The notes under the pieces: generated by a model
Databases searched by the model: none
The model's input: only the letters and a program-made list of their open reading frames with translations
Told to the model about the DNA's origin: nothing
Made by a program: the position numbers and the translations under genes
Source: a virus
Virus record (IMG/VR): IMGVR_UViG_3300042691_006550
Span: 1-21,783 of that record
Reading direction: 5' to 3' (one strand)
Length of the DNA stretch: 21,783 bases
In this document: piece after piece, positions 3,706-20,263 of the stretch
How positions within the stretch are numbered: the first letter of the stretch is position 1
How the letters are laid out: every line of letters begins with the position of its first letter

Positions 3706-4341
3706 ATGGCATATACACGTGGTACATCGAATAATATTATCGTCGGTGCAGCCGCTTTCTTTATTGCAGATACAACATTGACAGCAGGCACACTACCAGC
3801 ATTTGATGCAAATGAGTCGTACAGAGATACTCTTTCCGATGATTTAGATTTTACAAATGTTGGCTATACCATGAATGGTCTTGAATTGCAGTTCCAACCA
3901 GACTTCGGTGAAGTACAGGTTGACCAACTTCTTGACGTTGCTAAACTATACAAGCAGGGAATGCAAGTAAATATGGCAACTGCTTTTGCTGAGGCTACCC
4001 TTGAGAATCTTCTCTTGGCCCTTGCTTACAGCGATTCTGAACTATCAGGAACAAAATCTACTTCAGCAGGACAAACTCTTAATCTCTCCGCAGGAGACAT
4101 TGGAGAATGCCCAGTTGAGCGTGGTATTGTTGCTGTAGGTCCTGGAACTGGAGATTGCGAAGACTCCGCATATGTTGAGCGTGTTTACGCTGCGTATCGT
4201 GCGCTCTCAATTGAGAACGTAACTGTATCCGCAAAGCGTGACGAACCATCAATGTTTGAGGTTTCCTTCCGTCTTCTTCCTGAAGATACTAGTGCTTCCT
4301 ACGGAAAACTTATTGACCGTACTTGGGCACCAGCATCATAA
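3706..4341 (+). CDS. Major tail (tube) protein
   Basis: A 211-residue protein. ATG 3706 is preferred because AGAGGTGA lies at 3693-3700; the in-frame TTG at 3685 falls inside the leader hairpin. The protein has the features of a siphovirus tube subunit: moderate size, beta-rich, acidic early region (DANESYRDTLSDDLDF), a 'GYTMNGLELQFQPDFGEVQVDQLL' stretch typical of major tail proteins, an alpha segment at 'AFAEATLENLLLALAY', and a C-terminal 'SMFEVSFRLLPED' strand. It has its own promoter-like element, a leader and a strong intrinsic terminator, so it behaves as a separate high-output unit. Codon choice is unlike that of the neck genes, with many CTT, CGT, GTT, TCC and GAC codons, matching the capsid gene and the short chaperone. 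Two to three Cys are present, with no obvious pairing. Confidence 0.85.
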   Translation: MAYTRGTSNNIIVGAAAFFIADTTLTAGTLPAFDANESYRDTLSDDLDFTNVGYTMNGLELQFQPDFGEVQVDQLLDVAKLYKQGMQVNMATAFAEATLENLLLALAYSDSELSGTKSTSAGQTLNLSAGDIGECPVERGIVAVGPGTGDCEDSAYVERVYAAYRALSIENVTVSAKRDEPSMFEVSFRLLPEDTSASYGKLIDRTWAPAS

Positions 4342-4362: not shown

Positions 4363-4392
4363 AAACCCGTCACATTCGTGTGGCGGGTTTTT
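4363..4392 (+). terminator. Strong intrinsic terminator behind major tail protein gene
   Basis: The 12-bp arms AAACCCGTCACA (4363-4374) and TGTGGCGGGTTT (4379-4390) pair with a single T-G wobble around a TTCG tetraloop. The right arm runs into a T-tract (4388-4392). GC-rich core, stable tetraloop and T-tract make this the clearest terminator in the window. It separates the major tail transcript from the chaperone genes. Confidence 0.88.
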
Positions 4393-4397
4393 CGTTA

Positions 4398-4406
4398 TGA
4401 TAGAAT
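4398..4406 (+). promoter_or_regulatory. Extended -10 TGaTAGAAT giving a leaderless start
   Basis: TG at 4398-4399, one base, TAGAAT at 4401-4406, then AG. It starts six bases after the terminator T-tract. Seven bases separate the -10 from the ATG at 4414, which is the normal distance from a -10 to the transcription start. The mRNA would therefore begin at or next to the start codon, and no ribosome site is present. Confidence 0.55.
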
Positions 4407-4413
4407 AGATAAA

Positions 4414-5109
4414 ATGGCTACAGAAATTTATAATAGTGATAATATTTTTTTAATTGACGGTACAGAGATATATCTTGTTCCATTAAAGATTAAATATCTA
4501 AGAGAATTTATGCAAAAATTTGACTTAGTAAAAGATGCAAAAGATGACTATGAGGCTATAGAAATCCTATCTGAATGTGCAAGAATATGTATGAAACAAT
4601 ATTATCCAAAAATATCAAAAACTGTATCAGACCTGCAAGACAATATGGATATGCCAACGGTATATAAAGTTATAGATATTGCTGCAGGTATAAAGATAAA
4701 TCAGGCATCAGATGAGACCGTAAAAGATCAAGCAAATAATAGTGGTACGTCATGGTCTGATTTAGATTTAGCAAAACTAGAATCTGAGGTATTTTTGCTT
4801 GGTATTTGGAAAGATTATTCCGAATTAGAAGAGTCATTATCAATGCCCGAACTGCTTGCTACTTTAAGTATAAAAAGAGAACTAGATTATTCTGAAAAAA
4901 AATTTTTGGCGGCAATACAGGGGGTAGATTTAGACAAACAATCTGGTCAAACTCGTGGCCAAAAAGAGTGGGAAGATATGAAGGCTAGAGTTTTTAGCAA
5001 AGGAAAGGCAACAGATAGTAATGATATTCTTGCTCTTCAGGGAGAGAATGCAAGAAAAGCAGGCTTTGGAATTGGAATGGGTATAGATTACGAAGATCTT
5101 AGAAATTAG
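4414..5109 (+). CDS. Long tail-assembly chaperone (G and T domains fused in frame)
   Basis: A 231-residue protein. ATG 4414 is chosen over the in-frame GTG at 4378, which lies inside the terminator hairpin. Residues 1-100 are the G-like domain, starting MATEIYNSDNIFLIDGTEIY, with 'LSECARICMKQY' and 'MDMPTVYKVIDIAAG'. Residues 113-231 are a T-like domain (SWSDLDLAKLESEVFLLGIW, then 'SLSMPELLATLS', 'KKFLAAIQGVDLD', 'KEWEDMKARVF', 'NDILALQG' and the C-terminal 'GFGIGMGIDYEDL'). In lambda-type systems this extension is made by frameshifting, but here it is encoded without any shift. The neighbouring gene at 5150 is a paralogue of the G domain alone. Chaperones of this kind coat the tape measure protein and recruit tube subunits. 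There is no ribosome site, Arg codons are nearly all AGA and TTA leucine is common, which points to low expression. Confidence 0.82.
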   Translation: MATEIYNSDNIFLIDGTEIYLVPLKIKYLREFMQKFDLVKDAKDDYEAIEILSECARICMKQYYPKISKTVSDLQDNMDMPTVYKVIDIAAGIKINQASDETVKDQANNSGTSWSDLDLAKLESEVFLLGIWKDYSELEESLSMPELLATLSIKRELDYSEKKFLAAIQGVDLDKQSGQTRGQKEWEDMKARVFSKGKATDSNDILALQGENARKAGFGIGMGIDYEDLRN

Positions 5110-5116
5110 TGTTTTA

Positions 5117-5125
5117 TGCTATAAT
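5117..5125 (+). promoter_or_regulatory. Extended -10 promoter TGcTATAAT before short chaperone
   Basis: TG at 5117-5118, one base, a perfect TATAAT at 5120-5125, then TG. No clear -35 is seen. Transcription would begin near 5132, giving a leader of about 17 bases that contains AGGAGG at 5140-5145. This would let the short chaperone be made independently of the long one. Confidence 0.55.
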
Positions 5126-5149
5126 TGAGATTAACCTATAGGAGGAAAA

Positions 5150-5473
5150 ATGGCAACAACAGTGCATGAGGAAAATACCCTCACGCTGATCGACGGAACA
5201 AAAATCAATGTTCGTCCCCTAAAAATCTCTCTTCTTCGTCCTTTTATGAAGAAGTTTGAAGGAGTTGGGGCAGTGGCGGAAGACAACGAAAAGTCAATGA
5301 CTCTTCTTGTCGAATGTGTTCAAATTGCAATGCAGCAATACAAGCCTGAATTGGCTGGAGATATTGCAAAGTTGGAAGAACTTCTTGACCTTCCAACAGT
5401 ATATAAGATCGTCGAAGCAGCGTCAGGTGTTAAACTTGCTGAAGTTTCAGATGTTCTAAATACAAGTATGTAA
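5150..5473 (+). CDS. Short tail-assembly chaperone (G-type), paralogue of the upstream gene
   Basis: A 107-residue protein at ATG 5150 behind AGGAGG (5140-5145, four bases from the ATG), among the best ribosome sites in the window. It aligns with residues 1-100 of the upstream chaperone with one gap and roughly 40 identities, including MAT at the start, 'LIDGT', 'PLKI', 'ECxxIxMxQYxP' and 'DxPTVYK'. It stops where the T domain would start; no slippery heptamer or downstream T frame is visible before the tape measure gene. It is therefore a stand-alone G protein, the form needed in large excess during tail assembly. Leucines are CTT/CTC/CTA/CTG/TTG with no TTA, and its arginines are CGT, the opposite of the long gene. 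The tape measure gene follows after 29 bases. Confidence 0.82.
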   Translation: MATTVHEENTLTLIDGTKINVRPLKISLLRPFMKKFEGVGAVAEDNEKSMTLLVECVQIAMQQYKPELAGDIAKLEELLDLPTVYKIVEAASGVKLAEVSDVLNTSM

Positions 5474-5502: not shown

Positions 5503-8500
5503 ATGGCTGACGTTAATGCTAATATTGGCGTAAATATAGATACGTCAAATGCATTAGCACAGTTAAAATCGCTTCAGCGTCAGATATCACAGTTTCACAC
5601 ATCTGTAGCACGTTCAAGTGAAACGGCTGCTTTAGCACAACGTGATCTGCAGAGAAACTTCATCAATAGCGTAAATGCTATTAGTGGGTTCTCTGCAGAA
5701 TTACGAACAGTTAAAACAACAGCAGAATCTTTTACAGACTCACTAGAAAAAAACAAATTTTCTATGCGGGAATACTTCCGCTATGCGGGGGCATCCACAA
5801 AAACATTTGGAAAACTATTCCGTTCTGAATTTGACACAATAAATAAGGTAGCAGAAGAAAGAGTAAAAAGACTACAGACTCAGTATATTAAGATGGGTCG
5901 TGATGCTACTGGAGCAATGAAGGCAATTGCAATTATGCCTACATCGCTTGATATGAAAGATTTTGGCACACAAGTACAAATTGCAGCACAAAGACAGGCT
6001 TTATTTAATCAATTAATGAAACAAGGTTCAACAAATCTGTTGAATTTTGGTAAGAATACACAGTGGGCTGGCCGTCAGTTGATGGTTGGTTTTACCCTTC
6101 CACTTGCTGCGCTTGGTACGACTGCTGCTCGTACATTTATGGAAATGGAAGCAGCAGCACTTAAATTTAGAAAAGTTTATGGAGACTTATTTACTCCTGC
6201 TGCAGAAACTAAACAGGCTTTAGATAACATAACAGAAATTGGAGAGCAGTTTACTAAATATGGTATTGCTGTTTCACAAACAGTTGGTCTAGCAGCAGAA
6301 GCAGCCGCTGCAGGTTTCCAAGGTCTAGACTTACAGCGTCAAACCATTGAAGCAACAAGACTACAAGTTCTTGGTCAGATTGATCAGCAAAAGGCTCTTG
6401 AAACTACAATTTCATTACAAAATGCTTTCAGAATGTCTTCTGAAGATCTTGCAGCAGCAATTAACTTCTTGAACGCAGTTGAAAACCAAACCGTTGTATC
6501 ACTTGATGATATTACAACTGCAATTCCTAAAGCAGCACCAATTGTTAGGGAGTTAGGTGGAGATGTAAAAGATTTAGCATTCTTCATGGCTGCTATGAAA
6601 GAAGGCGGTATCAATGCATCAGAAGGTGCTAACGCACTAAAGTCTGGCCTTGCATCTCTTATCAACCCAACAGAAAAGGCAAGCGACATGCTTGCTGGAT
6701 TTGGTATTAACATTAATCAAATTGTAGAAAAGAATGTTGGTAATGTAAAGCAAACAGTAATAGATTTTGCACTTGCTCTTGATAATTTAAGTGATTTAAA
6801 TAGACAAAGAGCAATTGAGCAATTATTTGGTAAGTTCCAGCAAGCCCGTTTGTCTGCATTGTTTGATAACGTAATTAGAGATGGAAATCAAGCATCTCGT
6901 GTTCTTGAATTAACTGGAGCATCTGTAGAAGAATTGAGCGCTCTTGCAGAACAAGAATTAGGCATGACTGCAGAATCTGCAATGAATAAATTTAGAAAGG
7001 CAGTAGAAGATCTAAAACTAACATTAGTTCCAGTTGGACAGACATTTTTAGAAGCAGTAACTCCTATAGTAGATTTTATTGGAGGAATACTAGATAAGTT
7101 TAATAATCTATCCTCTGGCGCTAAAAAAGCAATAACCCTTTTAACTGTTGCGGTAGGAGCAATTGGGCCAGTTCTTCTTATGACATTTGGTTTGGTTGCA
7201 AACGGAATAGCAAACCTTGTTAAAGGTTTTATGGTTCTTCGTAATGGATATTTAAGATTAACTGGACAGTCACAAATACTAGGAGAGCAAACTGAATATT
7301 TGACAGTTGAACAACAAAATGCTGCTGCTGTTGCTGCCTCTCTTGATCAGGCTCATTCTAGATTAACCCAAACATTTAATGTAGAGGCTGGAGCATTAAA
7401 GAAACTAACTGCTGAATATTTGGCTGCAATATCTGCAGGACAAAGATTTGCAATGAATTTCCCAGGAGCAATGATTCCTCAGCCAGGAAGGCGATACAAC
7501 AATGGTGTTGTAATGGTTCCAGGAACTGGAAATAAAGATACTGTTCCAGCAATGCTTACGCCTGGAGAAGCAGTTATTCCAGCAGAAATGGCAAAGAAAT
7601 ATGCCCCATTAATTCAAGGAATGATTGCTGGAAATATACCAGGTTATAAGAAAGGCGTACCTGGAGATGCTGATTTTGCACACATAACAAATAGACAAAT
7701 TGTAGAAATTGGCAAGTTGCTTGAAATGTTAGAGCAAGCACCAAAAACAATGTCTCAATCTATGATGGCAACACTGAGAGAATTAGCAAAAGTATTTGGA
7801 AATGAATTAAAAACATTCGTTTATTCTGGGCTTGGATTTACACAGTCTAAAGCATTGAATATAGGAATGGCTGGAGATAAACCAGTAATGGCTACAGAAT
7901 TTTTATCAGATTTCCAAAAACAGGGTATGGAAAAATGGAATAAATCATTAAATATTGCTGGAGTAAAAATTGATGATGTATCTTCAGAATTGACATTATA
8001 TGATTCTAAATTACAAGAAGCAGTTCAATCATTAATATCATTTGATGAAAATGCAACAATAACATCAACACAGTTTGCTGCTATAGAAAAAGAAGTGCGT
8101 TCAACGCTGCCAGAATTTTCACAACTTAGACAAGCATTAAATATGGCAGAAGCAGCATTTACTGAAATAAGGTTTAATATAAATGAATCTCAGGCTATCG
8201 CTGCTGGAATGCAACCATACCAGGTTCCAAGCCAAAAGTTCCCTGGTCAAATGTCAAAGAAAAAGAAAATCAATTTGCCAAGCGGAAAAGCAATAAGGCT
8301 TGGAGGAGAGCATTTTGTTGGTCGTGGATATGGAGGAATGACTGGAGGAATTAATGTTTCCTCAATTGCAGCATCACAGGGAGCACAGGTAGCAAATGAA
8401 GCAGTTCTTGCAACCGCTCAGGCTGCTGGAACACAATCTCCTTCACGTAGAACAATTCCTATTGGAGAAGATATTGCACGTGGTCTTCAGGTTGGAATGA

Positions 8501-11500
8501 TAAATCAGACAGATGAAACTGTTGCTGTTGCAGAAAATCTTGGAACACAAGCGGTATCTGGAACTCAAAGTGGTGGTCGTAGACGAAGAATAGCAAGAAG
8601 GCCACAAGGTGCACCTGAAGAAATACCAATGTCACAGATACAGGAACAAAGTGCATTGTCAGAAAGTATTAAAAGAGTTGGTGATGAGCAGGTAAGACAA
8701 GGAAGGTTAAACGCAGAAAGACTTAGCAAGATGAATGCTGGTTTAATGTCTGCGACATTTGCCATATCATCATTATCTGGAATTACAACATTATTTGCAG
8801 ATGGCCCATTAGCAAAGTTTTCTGGTGCAATATCAAAATTAACTGGACTTATGTTTGTATTAATGTCTGTTACACAAGCACTGACGCAGACAAAGATTTT
8901 AGAACTTGCACAAAGTAGAATTGGTTATGCAGCAGGGGCAGTGATTTCTGCAAAAGAGGCAGGAATAGGAATGGCCGCTAGAGCAGGATTTATTGGAAAT
9001 CTTGCAAAAGCAGGATTATTCTTAAAAACTTTCTTAGGTCCTGTTGGAATAGCAACAACAGTAATTGGTCTTATGGCTGGTGCTATTAAACTAAACAATA
9101 TGAGACTAGAGGAGCAAAGAAAACAACTTGAAGCCTTTAGTGATGTTTTGGCAAAGACAACAAAGCAGTCCGACTTCCTTTCCGATTATTTTGGATTAAT
9201 TCCACAAAAGGGATCTCTTGAAAACTTTGGAGAAGAACTAGAAAGACTTTCTGCTGTACAAAGAAGTGAAAGAGAAAAATTAAAGCAAGATAAAGGATTC
9301 CAAGAAGCCTTTGGCGGAACAATTGGTGCTGTATCAAGACTATCTGACGAAGAAGCAAAGTCTGCGTTAACTCTAAAAGGTTTAGAACTTATTTCTCAAG
9401 GTATGGCAAAAGAAAAGGTTCAAGAATTAATTGCTGCTATAAAAGAAGAGGCTGGCAAAACAAATGTCAAACTTGACTTTGCAAATCTAAAATTTGATGA
9501 AGCAGGCATTAAGCAATTAAATGGTGAAGTTGGAAATGCATTAAAAGGATTCCAAACTACTTATATTAGTGGACTTCAGAAAACATTTAAATACGTTGCA
9601 GAAGGAGAAGGACGTTCTGCTCAAATTAAACTTGTTGAAGCGCTTGTGCCAACAGAACAAGCAAAGGCTGCTCTAAAAAATGCAGGTACTGCAGTATCAT
9701 CATATATTGAAAGTATTAATAGACTTGCTGATAGTGGAAGTCTAAATCTTGACCAATACAATAAGATGTTTGATGGACTGTTTAATACTATTAAATCTTC
9801 TGTGCCAGATTCAGCAACACAGTTAGCACTATTTAGAAAAGCAGTTAAGTTAATAGATCCAGATTTGGCAAAGGTTATTAAGGGAGTGAATGACTTAAGT
9901 CAGGCACAACTTATATTGAAGGGTGCTACCGCTGGTGTTTCAGAAGCACTTTTGGTAAATTATGCCGTGGCTTTAAGAACCGCAGATGCCTTAAATAAAG
10001 TTGCAGATGCAAATATAGCAGCAGGGGCAGCAGCAGATGCATCCGCAGAAGCAGCATATAGAAGGGGTACTGCAAATGCTGCAGTTGTAGATTATGAAAT
10101 AAAAATTAGAAAAGCAATTGAAGAAGCCTTAAGAATTTCTAAAGAATTAAACAAAGTTGATACAGCAAACTCTAATAGCAAAAAAGGATTTTTGCAAGAT
10201 GAGATTACAGCCCTTAAAAATCAAATTGCAGCATATAGACAATTAAGAATAGCAAAGGTAGATGCTGCTACAGCATCAGAACTAGCAGGTAATGCTGAAA
10301 TGGCTGCTCTATTGAAGACAAAGGCTGGAGTTCAACAGAATATTGCAGCAATTAAAGAGTATGCAAGACTAAAAAGAGAGGCTGCCCTAATACAAGAAGC
10401 AGGTGCAGAAATTGGTGATGCAACAATTGCTGATTTGAATAGAAAGAAAGCATTCCTTGATCTACAAGAACAACTAATTACAATGAGATATTCTCATGAA
10501 TTAGAGCGTCAAAACCGTGCTCTTGAAGACCAAGAATGGGCGCTAGAGCAAGTTCAACGCAAGATTGATCAAATAGAAAGAGAGCAAATTAGACCACTTC
10601 AAGATATTATTGAAGAAAATACATTTGCACTAGAGGCAATCGGGTTTGCTGAAGAAAAAATTAATGCTAAATATGATGAGCAGGAAAGAATTCTTGAAAA
10701 TATTCTTGAGATTAATCAAGACATTGAAAATGTTCAAAGAGCAAGACTAACTGTAGCGGACGCACTCACTACTGGTGATATCTCTGCTGCTGCAAAGGCT
10801 GTAGAAGATCTTCGTAGCCAACAAAGAAATATGGCATCTTCCAACCAAAGAAAGGTATTGCAAAATGCTAGAAAGCAAGAAATTGCAGCATTGGGCAGGA
10901 TAGAAATAGAAGAGGCTAATAAAAAAATACAATTAGAAATTAGCAAAATTCAATTTGAACAAACAAGAAATCTTGAAAAACAAAAGGTAGTTATACAAGA
11001 TAACATAGATGGTATTCAAGAAACAATTCAAAATATTGAATATGTAACAATGGTTTCCATCAGAAGAATGACTGATGAAATTAGTAAGCGTTTCGGCGGT
11101 ACAAAGGTAGAAATAGAAAATGCCCTAAAGGTTCTTGATCTATCAAAGGCTGCTGGAATTGATATTAATAGTGAATCATTTATTACAAATGTTCTAAAGG
11201 CTGCTGGCGGATATGCTTCTTATATTAATAAAATTATTACAGATACCCCAGATTTATTCCAGGCTGTAATTGATGAAATAGCAAAACTAAGAGCAGAAAT
11301 GGAATTGCCAGTTATTCCAAAGATTGATACTGCTCCAATTAATGAACAGTATCTTGCTCCTAAACTAGAAGTTTCTTTACCAATTATGAAGCCAGATTCA
11401 AGTTGTCCTTCTGGTTGGGCATATTATATTGAAACATATGTAGATGAGGGGCAAGGACAACCAGCAACACTATTTAGTAGCATCTTTGTTGGATGTGCTG

Positions 11501-12441
11501 CAGGTGCACCAAGTGCTGTAACTCCACAACCACAGCCACAACCACAGCCACAACCACAGCCACAACCACAGCCACAACCACAGCCACAACCACAGCCAAT
11601 ACCAGCGGGGCCATGTGGTCCTGCAAAACCTTATTACAATTACTACACAGGGGAGTGTGTAGCAACTCCAGAAGAAATTAAGCCAAGAGTTACTACAGTT
11701 CCTACTCCAACTCCTACTCCAAAGCCTACTCCAATACCAACTCCAACACCAGAAGTTTCTACAGTAACACCAAGACCAGAAAATATATTTACTCCATTTG
11801 TTGAAGCAGCAAAAAATGATTATGATAAGATCGTTGCTTCTTCATTAAAACCTGGTGCAACGCCAAGTGATTTTGGACATGCTTTAGCAGCAGCAGATAA
11901 AAAAGTAATAGATGCTATTAATTTAGTTGATGAAAGAAATAAATATAATAATATTGTTGCATCTTCATTAAAACCAGGAGCAACGCCTAGTGATTTTGCA
12001 GCATCTTTAGCAGCACAAGATAAAAAGGTAGTTGATGCAGCAAAGAAAGTAACTGGAACAACAAGTTCAACAAAAAAGCCAGCGCCGTCAACTATAGGTG
12101 GAGTTACCAGTAGCGTAGTTGCTAACTTTTTAGCAGAGCGCAAGGCTAGTGGTGGAATTATTACACAAAGATATGCCTTTGGTGGTAAGGTTTTGGGTAC
12201 TGATACTGTACCAGCAATGTTAACGCCAGGCGAATTTGTTATGAGTAGATATGCTGTACAAAATTATGGGGTTGACCGTATGAAGGCCATAAATGATGGC
12301 ACATATGCAGGCGACGCAGTGTATAATTATAGTGTCAATGTAAATGTTAAATCTGGAGCAAACCCTGATGAAATTGCAAGGGCAGTTATGACACAGATTA
12401 AACAGGTTGATTCACAGAGAATTAGGACACAGAGAGTTTAA
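5503..12441 (+). CDS. Tape measure protein
   Basis: A 2,312-residue protein at ATG 5503 with AAGGTGA upstream. An N-terminal coiled coil (about 1-200) is followed by a TP901-type tape measure core (about 210-460: AAAGFQGLDLQRQ, NAVENQTVVSLDDIT, MAAMKEGGINASEGANAL, RAIEQLFGKFQQARLSAL). Hydrophobic segments lie near 538-575, 1080-1125 and 1170-1200, as in tape measures that enter the cell membrane with the DNA. A basic linker (GGRRRRIARRP) is near 1020 and a long charged coiled coil spans about 1600-1860. The C-terminus is unusual: Cys at 1968, 1998, 2038 and 2052 (the only four in the protein), a (PQ)12 run, a Pro/Thr linker and a tandem repeat at 2107-2179. DTVPAMLTPGE occurs at 679 and 2234. 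At the common 1.5 angstroms per residue the length predicts a tail near 350 nm at most. I see no peptidase or muramidase motif. Confidence 0.93.
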   Translation: MADVNANIGVNIDTSNALAQLKSLQRQISQFHTSVARSSETAALAQRDLQRNFINSVNAISGFSAELRTVKTTAESFTDSLEKNKFSMREYFRYAGASTKTFGKLFRSEFDTINKVAEERVKRLQTQYIKMGRDATGAMKAIAIMPTSLDMKDFGTQVQIAAQRQALFNQLMKQGSTNLLNFGKNTQWAGRQLMVGFTLPLAALGTTAARTFMEMEAAALKFRKVYGDLFTPAAETKQALDNITEIGEQFTKYGIAVSQTVGLAAEAAAAGFQGLDLQRQTIEATRLQVLGQIDQQKALETTISLQNAFRMSSEDLAAAINFLNAVENQTVVSLDDITTAIPKAAPIVRELGGDVKDLAFFMAAMKEGGINASEGANALKSGLASLINPTEKASDMLAGFGININQIVEKNVGNVKQTVIDFALALDNLSDLNRQRAIEQLFGKFQQARLSALFDNVIRDGNQASRVLELTGASVEELSALAEQELGMTAESAMNKFRKAVEDLKLTLVPVGQTFLEAVTPIVDFIGGILDKFNNLSSGAKKAITLLTVAVGAIGPVLLMTFGLVANGIANLVKGFMVLRNGYLRLTGQSQILGEQTEYLTVEQQNAAAVAASLDQAHSRLTQTFNVEAGALKKLTAEYLAAISAGQRFAMNFPGAMIPQPGRRYNNGVVMVPGTGNKDTVPAMLTPGEAVIPAEMAKKYAPLIQGMIAGNIPGYKKGVPGDADFAHITNRQIVEIGKLLEMLEQAPKTMSQSMMATLRELAKVFGNELKTFVYSGLGFTQSKALNIGMAGDKPVMATEFLSDFQKQGMEKWNKSLNIAGVKIDDVSSELTLYDSKLQEAVQSLISFDENATITSTQFAAIEKEVRSTLPEFSQLRQALNMAEAAFTEIRFNINESQAIAAGMQPYQVPSQKFPGQMSKKKKINLPSGKAIRLGGEHFVGRGYGGMTGGINVSSIAASQGAQVANEAVLATAQAAGTQSPSRRTIPIGEDIARGLQVGMINQTDETVAVAENLGTQAVSGTQSGGRRRRIARRPQGAPEEIPMSQIQEQSALSESIKRVGDEQVRQGRLNAERLSKMNAGLMSATFAISSLSGITTLFADGPLAKFSGAISKLTGLMFVLMSVTQALTQTKILELAQSRIGYAAGAVISAKEAGIGMAARAGFIGNLAKAGLFLKTFLGPVGIATTVIGLMAGAIKLNNMRLEEQRKQLEAFSDVLAKTTKQSDFLSDYFGLIPQKGSLENFGEELERLSAVQRSEREKLKQDKGFQEAFGGTIGAVSRLSDEEAKSALTLKGLELISQGMAKEKVQELIAAIKEEAGKTNVKLDFANLKFDEAGIKQLNGEVGNALKGFQTTYISGLQKTFKYVAEGEGRSAQIKLVEALVPTEQAKAALKNAGTAVSSYIESINRLADSGSLNLDQYNKMFDGLFNTIKSSVPDSATQLALFRKAVKLIDPDLAKVIKGVNDLSQAQLILKGATAGVSEALLVNYAVALRTADALNKVADANIAAGAAADASAEAAYRRGTANAAVVDYEIKIRKAIEEALRISKELNKVDTANSNSKKGFLQDEITALKNQIAAYRQLRIAKVDAATASELAGNAEMAALLKTKAGVQQNIAAIKEYARLKREAALIQEAGAEIGDATIADLNRKKAFLDLQEQLITMRYSHELERQNRALEDQEWALEQVQRKIDQIEREQIRPLQDIIEENTFALEAIGFAEEKINAKYDEQERILENILEINQDIENVQRARLTVADALTTGDISAAAKAVEDLRSQQRNMASSNQRKVLQNARKQEIAALGRIEIEEANKKIQLEISKIQFEQTRNLEKQKVVIQDNIDGIQETIQNIEYVTMVSIRRMTDEISKRFGGTKVEIENALKVLDLSKAAGIDINSESFITNVLKAAGGYASYINKIITDTPDLFQAVIDEIAKLRAEMELPVIPKIDTAPINEQYLAPKLEVSLPIMKPDSSCPSGWAYYIETYVDEGQGQPATLFSSIFVGCAAGAPSAVTPQPQPQPQPQPQPQPQPQPQPQPQPIPAGPCGPAKPYYNYYTGECVATPEEIKPRVTTVPTPTPTPKPTPIPTPTPEVSTVTPRPENIFTPFVEAAKNDYDKIVASSLKPGATPSDFGHALAAADKKVIDAINLVDERNKYNNIVASSLKPGATPSDFAASLAAQDKKVVDAAKKVTGTTSSTKKPAPSTIGGVTSSVVANFLAERKASGGIITQRYAFGGKVLGTDTVPAMLTPGEFVMSRYAVQNYGVDRMKAINDGTYAGDAVYNYSVNVNVKSGANPDEIARAVMTQIKQVDSQRIRTQRV
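11524..11595 (+). repeat. Minisatellite, six perfect copies of a 12-bp unit, in tape measure gene
   Basis: The unit CCACAACCACAG is repeated six times without a mismatch and encodes twelve Pro-Gln dipeptides. The repeat then decays into CCAATACCAGC. Perfect identity at the wobble position (alternating CAA and CAG) shows recent expansion by slippage rather than selection on the protein alone. A second, Pro/Thr-rich linker built of CCTACTCCA-like codons follows at about 11700-11752. Confidence 0.95.
11821..12039 (+). repeat. Tandem 123-bp (41-residue) repeat in tape measure C-terminus
   Basis: Two copies start at 11821 and 11944. Each encodes a 32-residue core, 'Y(D/N)xIVASSLKPGATPSDF' followed by 'xxxLAAxDKKV(I/V)DA', with 25 of 32 residues identical. 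The remaining 9 residues of copy one (INLVDERNK) form the spacer. The DNA has diverged more than the protein, mostly at third positions, so the duplication is older than the minisatellite beside it. Confidence 0.9.
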
Positions 12442-19802: not shown

Positions 19803-19811
19803 TGATATAAT
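19803..19811 (+). promoter_or_regulatory. Extended -10 TGaTATAAT, very close to the next start codon
   Basis: TG at 19803-19804, one base, TATAAT at 19806-19811, then GG. Eight bases separate it from the ATG at 19820, and those bases include GGAGAG (19812-19817). A transcript from here would be leaderless or nearly so, while read-through mRNA could use the GGAGAG site. Confidence 0.5.
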
Positions 19812-19819
19812 GGAGAGAT

Positions 19820-20263
19820 ATGGCTAAAGTACCGCTACCAGAACGAGGACAATCTTTAGATGTTACGTACATCTATCAGTTGGCTGATACCCTAAATGAT
19901 CTTTCAACACAGGTTTCATCAGCAACATATAACTATACTACTGTTGATACTATCAGTGCAGGCAGGCAAAGTATTAAAACTTCAGAGGCCAGAATTGTTG
20001 GTGGCTATATAGAAGTAGCAAACAACTCTACAGTAAGTGCTGGTAACGAAAAAACATTTTCATATGATTTTCCATCAGATTTTAAGTATGCTCCAATTGC
20101 AACAGCAACTGCTTTAAATATTGGAAATACTCCAGCAGGTCAAAACGTTACAGTAATTTTAAAATCTGTAACAACATCACGAGTAGAAGGAATTGTTAGG
20201 TTTGGTGCATCTGGAGATCTTTCTCTAGCCATCCATCTAATTGTTATTGGCATTCCTAACTAA
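19820..20263 (+). CDS. Small fibre-like minor tail protein
   Basis: A 147-residue protein at ATG 19820. The first 35 residues (ERGQSLDVTYIYQLADTLND) look like a helix that could trimerise. The rest is beta-rich with a Ser/Thr/Val pattern ('GGYIEVANNSTVSAGNEKTF', 'VTVILKSVTTSRVEGIVRFG'), ending in the short hydrophobic strand 'LSLAIHLIVIGIPN'. This shape fits the short end-of-module fibres or shaft-attached knobs of siphophages. It is the last structural gene here. No enzymatic motif is seen, and the role is inferred from layout and composition. Confidence 0.6.
   Translation: MAKVPLPERGQSLDVTYIYQLADTLNDLSTQVSSATYNYTTVDTISAGRQSIKTSEARIVGGYIEVANNSTVSAGNEKTFSYDFPSDFKYAPIATATALNIGNTPAGQNVTVILKSVTTSRVEGIVRFGASGDLSLAIHLIVIGIPN

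Follow-up and report, generated by a model that had tools for sequence, protein, structure and literature searches.

Two paralogous genes encode the probable tail assembly chaperones of the virus fragment analyzed here (the window, 21.8 kb or 21,783 nucleotides, 36% G+C), i.e., a long gene in which G and T are fused in one frame (GT) and a short gene that holds G alone, and neither this locus nor its relatives of the same layout show the slippery-site frameshift used by homologous single-gene forms. Tailed phages normally make the short and the long chaperone from one gene by a ribosome slip, and few cases of programmed recoding are as well conserved as the G/GT frameshift. The gene structure, the homology, the absence of slip sites, the conserved divergent signals and the split in codon usage are shown by the sequences. 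The best explanation as a whole, which we consider likely, is that a gene of the G/−1 T type was replaced by GT plus a short G, with the ratio of the two products controlled by separate signals.

Organization and identity of the chaperone locus

In the window, the major tail protein gene is followed by a terminator-like hairpin, GT, G and the tape measure protein gene (Table 1), so that the two chaperone genes are flanked by those for the major tail protein and the tape measure protein. The identity of the first of these genes is supported by the phages Coruscant and Braelyn, in which the gene at the same position is annotated as major tail protein. The profile phrog_10504 is matched by both GT (8.9e-24) and short G (6e-19), covering the first 112 residues of GT and nearly the whole of short G, while phrog_10474 is matched only by GT (residues 131-222, 4.2e-15). 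There is no T frame behind short G in the window, where the tape measure gene begins 29 nt downstream. The tape measure gene also contains a long Pro-Gln repeat, (PQ)n, at window positions 11474-11681, near the C-terminal part of its protein.

Table 1. Features of the tail assembly chaperone locus (window coordinates)
Feature	Coordinates	Strand	Remarks
Major tail protein gene	3706..4341	+	phrog_885 'major tail protein', E=2.9e-4; phrog_2175 'protein with Ig domain', 2.7e-33
Intrinsic-terminator-like hairpin and T tract, between major tail protein gene and GT	4366..4392	+	CCCGTCACA TTCG TGTGGCGGG TTTTT, read from sequence
Weaker extended -10 of GT	4398..4406	+	TGATAGAAT, 7 nt before the GT ATG
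GT, in-frame G+T tail assembly chaperone (likely)	4414..5109	+	231 aa, ATG start
G domain of GT (diverged copy)	4414..4728	+	phrog_10504; clade 100/100, stem 1.02 substitutions per site
T domain of GT	4729..5106	+	phrog_10474; alignments to the -1 frame of Stanwilliamsviridae chaperones
Consensus extended -10 of short G	5117..5125	+	TGCTATAAT; strict TGNTATAAT in 187/187 relatives
Shine-Dalgarno of short G	5140..5145	+	AGGAGG, read from sequence
Short G, tail assembly chaperone without T	5150..5473	+	107 aa, ATG start
Tape measure protein gene	5503..12441	+	phrog_10030, E=1.4e-99

The only relatives found among 50,697 phage records were 127 Streptomyces phages, and the two annotated records opened from this set, Coruscant and Braelyn, are members of the Stanwilliamsviridae that have one G copy, with G and T in different frames. 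Both GT and G are homologous in sequence to these chaperones (phrog_10504/phrog_10474), and the T domain of GT aligns lengthwise with the Stanwilliamsviridae -1 frame around the core W..L.LA.LE.E.F.LGIWK. Searched against BFVD, a library of viral structures, the AlphaFold model of GT (pLDDT 77) matched tail assembly chaperones, among them those of Kitkat, 6ec and EfaCPT1 and the GT of N15, with a best named match at 5.1e-4 and some weak E-values. Pfam gave no family above its cut-offs for GT or G, and sequence and fold searches of the PDB gave no significant match, including for the GT model. Based on the homology to the Stanwilliamsviridae G and -1 frame T, on synteny and, more weakly, on the fold matches, GT is likely a tail chaperone, and the locus is likely where a long-tailed phage, probably one of actinobacteria, encodes its tail assembly chaperones.

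The initial annotation, made from the sequence alone, had described the two open reading frames (231 aa and 107 aa, both starting with ATG) and a shared domain about 40% identical with one gap. Its coordinates held, and so did the identity, with 44 of 106 aligned residues identical (41.5%) and one internal gap. It had also suggested comparing GT residues 113-231 with known T domains, a stretch within which the phrog_10474 match lies, and had named as a refutation the possibility that the 231-residue protein is not a chaperone; this is contradicted by homology, synteny and fold matches.

Two architectures in one family

We collected about 400 loci from scans of IMG/VR and from one scan of genome contigs, which yielded a single locus, a frameshift form. 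Every complete locus fetched had either GT followed by G, or a G gene with T downstream in the -1 frame, and no third layout was present among them. The duplicated layout is represented by 187 distinct sequence sets from IMG/VR, and the frameshift layout by 47 distinct sets when counted by domain or 50 by whole reading frame, including isolated Streptomyces Stanwilliamsviridae. In every complete duplicated locus GT precedes G and forms one open frame, and the two genes are separated by 26-65 nt in nearly all loci. T was absent behind short G in all relatives with the duplicated layout, and no second G copy was found in the approximately 50 distinct frameshift-type sequences. One duplicated locus (L029) carries a 209-aa class I methyltransferase-like open reading frame inserted between GT and G (positions 5742-6371 of that locus); this insert was considered as a T and rejected, being a methyltransferase-like gene.

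The frameshift forms have an in-phase GGGAAAC, CCCAAAC or CCCAAAT heptamer located 36-57 nt before the G stop codon, with the exception of one subgroup of the Stanwilliamsviridae. In this subgroup (L163 and the other Stanwilliamsviridae L164-L170 and L174), most members have C CCG GAA immediately after the last -1 stop, and near relatives of the subgroup carry CCCAAAT. The -1 site there seems to be this non-canonical C CCG GAA, the exact slip position not having been shown.

At the junction of the fused GT, an in-phase heptamer occurred in 11 of 154 loci, below the 18% expected from codon shuffling, and a vestigial slip site in GT was rejected on this basis. GGGAAAC or CCCAAAY was found in any phase in 35 loci, a bare count for which the individual loci were not examined. 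Programmed frameshifting at a slippery site is thus a criterion that the duplicated loci do not meet and that is met in their single-gene relatives. A slippery heptamer with a conserved T frame behind the short gene in relatives, which had been named at the outset as evidence that would refute the duplication, was looked for and not found.

Expression signals of GT and short G

The signals upstream of the two genes differ and are conserved as such. The motif TGNTATAAT was found upstream of short G in all 187 distinct regions, 23-39 nt before the start codon. In the window it occurs 3 times against 2.5 expected, so that a lone occurrence is no more than chance; its conservation in all 187 G upstream regions is not. 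The Shine-Dalgarno duplex of short G had a median energy of -10.2 kcal/mol in the relatives, and 96% reached -6 or stronger. Frameshift-type G genes have the same kind of signal as short G: 43/44 carry an extended -10, usually placed 23-33 nt before the start.

For GT, 182/187 upstream regions have an extended -10, for the most part of the form TAGAAT or TAAAAT; 173 of these 182 end 5-9 nt before the ATG. There is no Shine-Dalgarno sequence before GT in the window, and a duplex energy of -6 was reached in only 2.7% of the GT upstream regions, compared with 12% of shuffled sequences. No in-frame start codon precedes the aligned GT ATG in 244/320 loci, supporting that the start position and the lack of a leader are well founded. 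Considering the extended -10 at 5-9 nt from the ATG and the missing Shine-Dalgarno, the GT message is likely leaderless, although the promoters are inferred from conserved motifs and no transcript data exist. A script detected the terminator-like hairpin before GT in 153/154 relatives compared with 34/154 shuffled sequences; a consensus terminator scanner run on the window did not report the hairpin at 4366..4392.

In L029, the G promoter and Shine-Dalgarno remain directly before G despite the insert, which supports separate GT and G units. It remains possible that transcription runs on from GT into G, or in from the major tail protein gene. A phage sigma factor as reader of these promoters is disfavored, since no Sigma70_r2 protein was found in 17 large relatives; host sigma factors therefore probably read the inferred GT and G promoters, the sigma factor itself being unidentified.

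Codon usage and selection

The window GT contains 6 AGA, 1 CGT and 9 TTA codons, and short G contains 0 AGA, 2 CGT and 0 TTA. Taking the major tail protein gene as the reference for highly expressed codon usage, the share of AGA+AGG among arginine codons was 0.15 in the major tail protein, 0.20 in short G and 0.30 in frameshift-type G, and 0.66 in the G domain of GT, 0.84 in its T domain and 0.74 in the frameshifted T. TTA and ATA follow the same trend, GT being rich in AGA, TTA and ATA, and in 93% of 189 pairs G was nearer than GT to the major tail protein. As the codon shares of GT are unlike those of short G and the major tail protein, its G domain seems to have lost the highly expressed codon usage, likely on joining a rarely made protein, a dose that is itself inferred. 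The ratio of dN/dS was about 0.1 for all three domains, and both genes are under purifying selection; dS was 0.18 for short G versus 0.6-0.8 for GT.

The initial annotation had contrasted a long gene without a ribosome site, probably leaderless and using AGA and TTA, with a short gene having AGGAGG, its own extended -10, CGT arginines and no TTA. All of these observations held, the leaderless status of GT by inference from the signals. Its further claim, that this arrangement fits the need for a large excess of G, has only indirect support from the split in promoter, Shine-Dalgarno and codon usage; an excess of G over GT is inferred from sequence, and no protein data are available.

Evolutionary history

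The G-domain tree groups all GT copies in a single clade (100/100), whose long stem measures 1.02 substitutions per site. Short G makes up a second clade (100/96 when one long-branch row is left out), and the likelihood rises if all short G are constrained to group. The frameshift-type G copies are located around the base, mostly on short branches, and fall outside the short G clade. In the T tree, 41 of the 42 fused T domains group in one clade (97/91). Approximately unbiased (AU) tests on the G and T trees did not exclude the alternatives: a single clade of all fused T was not rejected (p 0.31), nor was one clade of all frameshift-type G (p 0.295). A quick MTP tree requires two changes of architecture, with some duplicated loci basal and outside the close frameshift group.

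The G-domain and T trees suggest that a frameshift-type gene was duplicated a single time and that short G is the more conservative of the copies. We thus consider it likely that a frameshift-type ancestor was replaced by a duplication with split signals, most likely once, although neither the count of events nor the branching order is settled. The frameshift state is likely ancestral, a view that rests mainly on the Stanwilliamsviridae and on tailed phages generally (PMC5009743). That a duplication with split regulation had replaced the frameshift was already proposed from the window, together with a homologue search and a G-domain tree as a check. Both have now been done, recovering the GT copies as one clade and finding frameshift-type relatives, and the proposal is supported by these relatives, with the protein ratio remaining inferred. 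Because homologous single-gene frameshift forms occur in close relatives, replacement of the frameshift by duplication is the best reading of the locus.

Proposed mechanism and alternative explanations

We propose that a single gene of the ancestral type, producing G and, via a -1 frameshift, T, gave rise to two paralogues, an in-frame GT followed by a short G. Short G retains the signals of the frameshift-type gene, i.e., a consensus extended -10, a leader and a strong Shine-Dalgarno, and GT is placed behind a terminator-like hairpin with its own degenerate extended -10 just before the ATG and no Shine-Dalgarno. In this scheme, GT would be made in small amounts from a leaderless transcript, an inference made without transcript or protein data, and G is predicted to be made in large excess from its strong promoter and ribosome site, likewise without protein data. 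The G:GT ratio would then be set by promoters and translation starts and not by ribosome slippage, for which no ratio data exist. By analogy with lambda, and without binding data, G may coat the tape measure protein and GT may bring in the tube protein. A bolder reading is that the whole lineage swapped recoding for duplication with separate regulation as its control of stoichiometry, in which case the G domain of GT would be a specialized initiator no longer interchangeable with G; on the present evidence this could as well be wrong as right.

Several alternatives were weighed against this explanation. The two genes might be paralogous chaperones with different jobs, e.g., serving two tail clients, the long one alone doing the classical work. 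The long stem of the GT G domain (1.02 substitutions per site) and its identity of only about 40% to short G speak for this. On the other hand, short G is the less diverged copy, with the promoter, Shine-Dalgarno and codon usage of the frameshift type, and it accompanies GT in every complete locus of the duplicated layout; moreover, GT alone without a slip site would leave no source of the excess G needed in lambda-type assembly (PMC5009743). We regard this alternative as very unlikely. We also find little to recommend the idea that the ancestor was duplicated and that the frameshift forms of close relatives arose from it by reversion or reflect sequencing errors. In its favor, the quick MTP tree places some duplicated loci outside the close frameshift group, but about 50 distinct sequences have the -1 frame, most with an in-phase GGGAAAC or CCCAAAC/T and none with a second G, the isolated Stanwilliamsviridae also have the -1 layout, and the short G clade contains no frameshift-type G.

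Less remote, yet still unlikely, is that GT and G are co-transcribed, their ratio depending only on translation initiation, with a leaderless or weak start on GT as opposed to a strong Shine-Dalgarno on G, and that the promoter-like motif of G is incidental. The short distance between the genes (26-65 nt in nearly all loci) and the absence of a reported terminator between them in the window scan agree with co-transcription; the invariance of TGNTATAAT in 187/187 regions and its position beside G despite the L029 insert do not. This alternative would be a variation of the duplication with separate signals and not a contradiction of it.

Comparison with known systems

The Stanwilliamsviridae (Coruscant, Braelyn, Samisti12 and others) share with the duplicated loci homologous G and T, the same position among the tail genes, and TGNTATAAT with a Shine-Dalgarno before G, but they have a single G gene, T in the -1 frame and no second G. 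Lambda gpG and gpGT likewise are a short G-only and a long G-T product with a common G domain; lambda makes them by a low-level -1 frameshift at about 30:1 (PMC5009743), whereas the duplicated loci use two genes and no shift.

The chaperones of T4-like phages are made by a mechanism other than frameshifting, according to the title of Vladimirov, Gautam and Davidson 2022 (cited in PMC10274946), and we take gp26 and gp51 to be the proteins meant. Both T4 proteins match PF12322 over nearly the whole profile and match each other at 2e-6. They resemble the present pair in being two paralogous genes without a frameshift, and differ from it in lying on opposite strands, in being both of the full-length type (208 and 249 aa) instead of G plus GT, and in that no frameshift sister group is shown for them in the present analysis. 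Neither GT nor G matched PF12322, and by these tests they are unrelated to the T4-like chaperones. Since these tests make gp26 and gp51 paralogues within a single Pfam family, paralogous chaperone genes without a frameshift are not wholly new, and the initial statement that no described case of exactly this layout was known needs qualifying: the T4-like pair is a partial precedent, and the literature searched contained no G plus GT pair that has a frameshift sister group, conserved split signals and members in the hundreds.

Because the frameshift and the duplicated state occur within one family, it can be asked directly whether the frameshift serves a fixed ratio, coupled synthesis or mere compactness. 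The change in GT codon usage after fusion would be an evolutionary readout of a low GT dose. Annotation pipelines that seek a frameshift would miss or mislabel the GT plus G layout.

Hosts and additional observations

A WhiB-like protein was found in all 18 related contigs larger than 79 kb (G001-G018, 79-125 kb), and the hosts are therefore likely actinobacteria. The locus from the genome contig scan (L245, CAINGU010000031.1), a frameshift-type relative with CCCAAAC, lies on a contig binned as a cyanobacterium; it may be a wrongly binned actinophage or may indicate a wider host range of the family. Elsewhere in the window, a 147-aa open reading frame is a further candidate leaderless gene, as its ATG lies 8 nt beyond the end of TGATATAAT (19803-19820), and another TGATATAAT at 577-585 precedes a gene at about 602.
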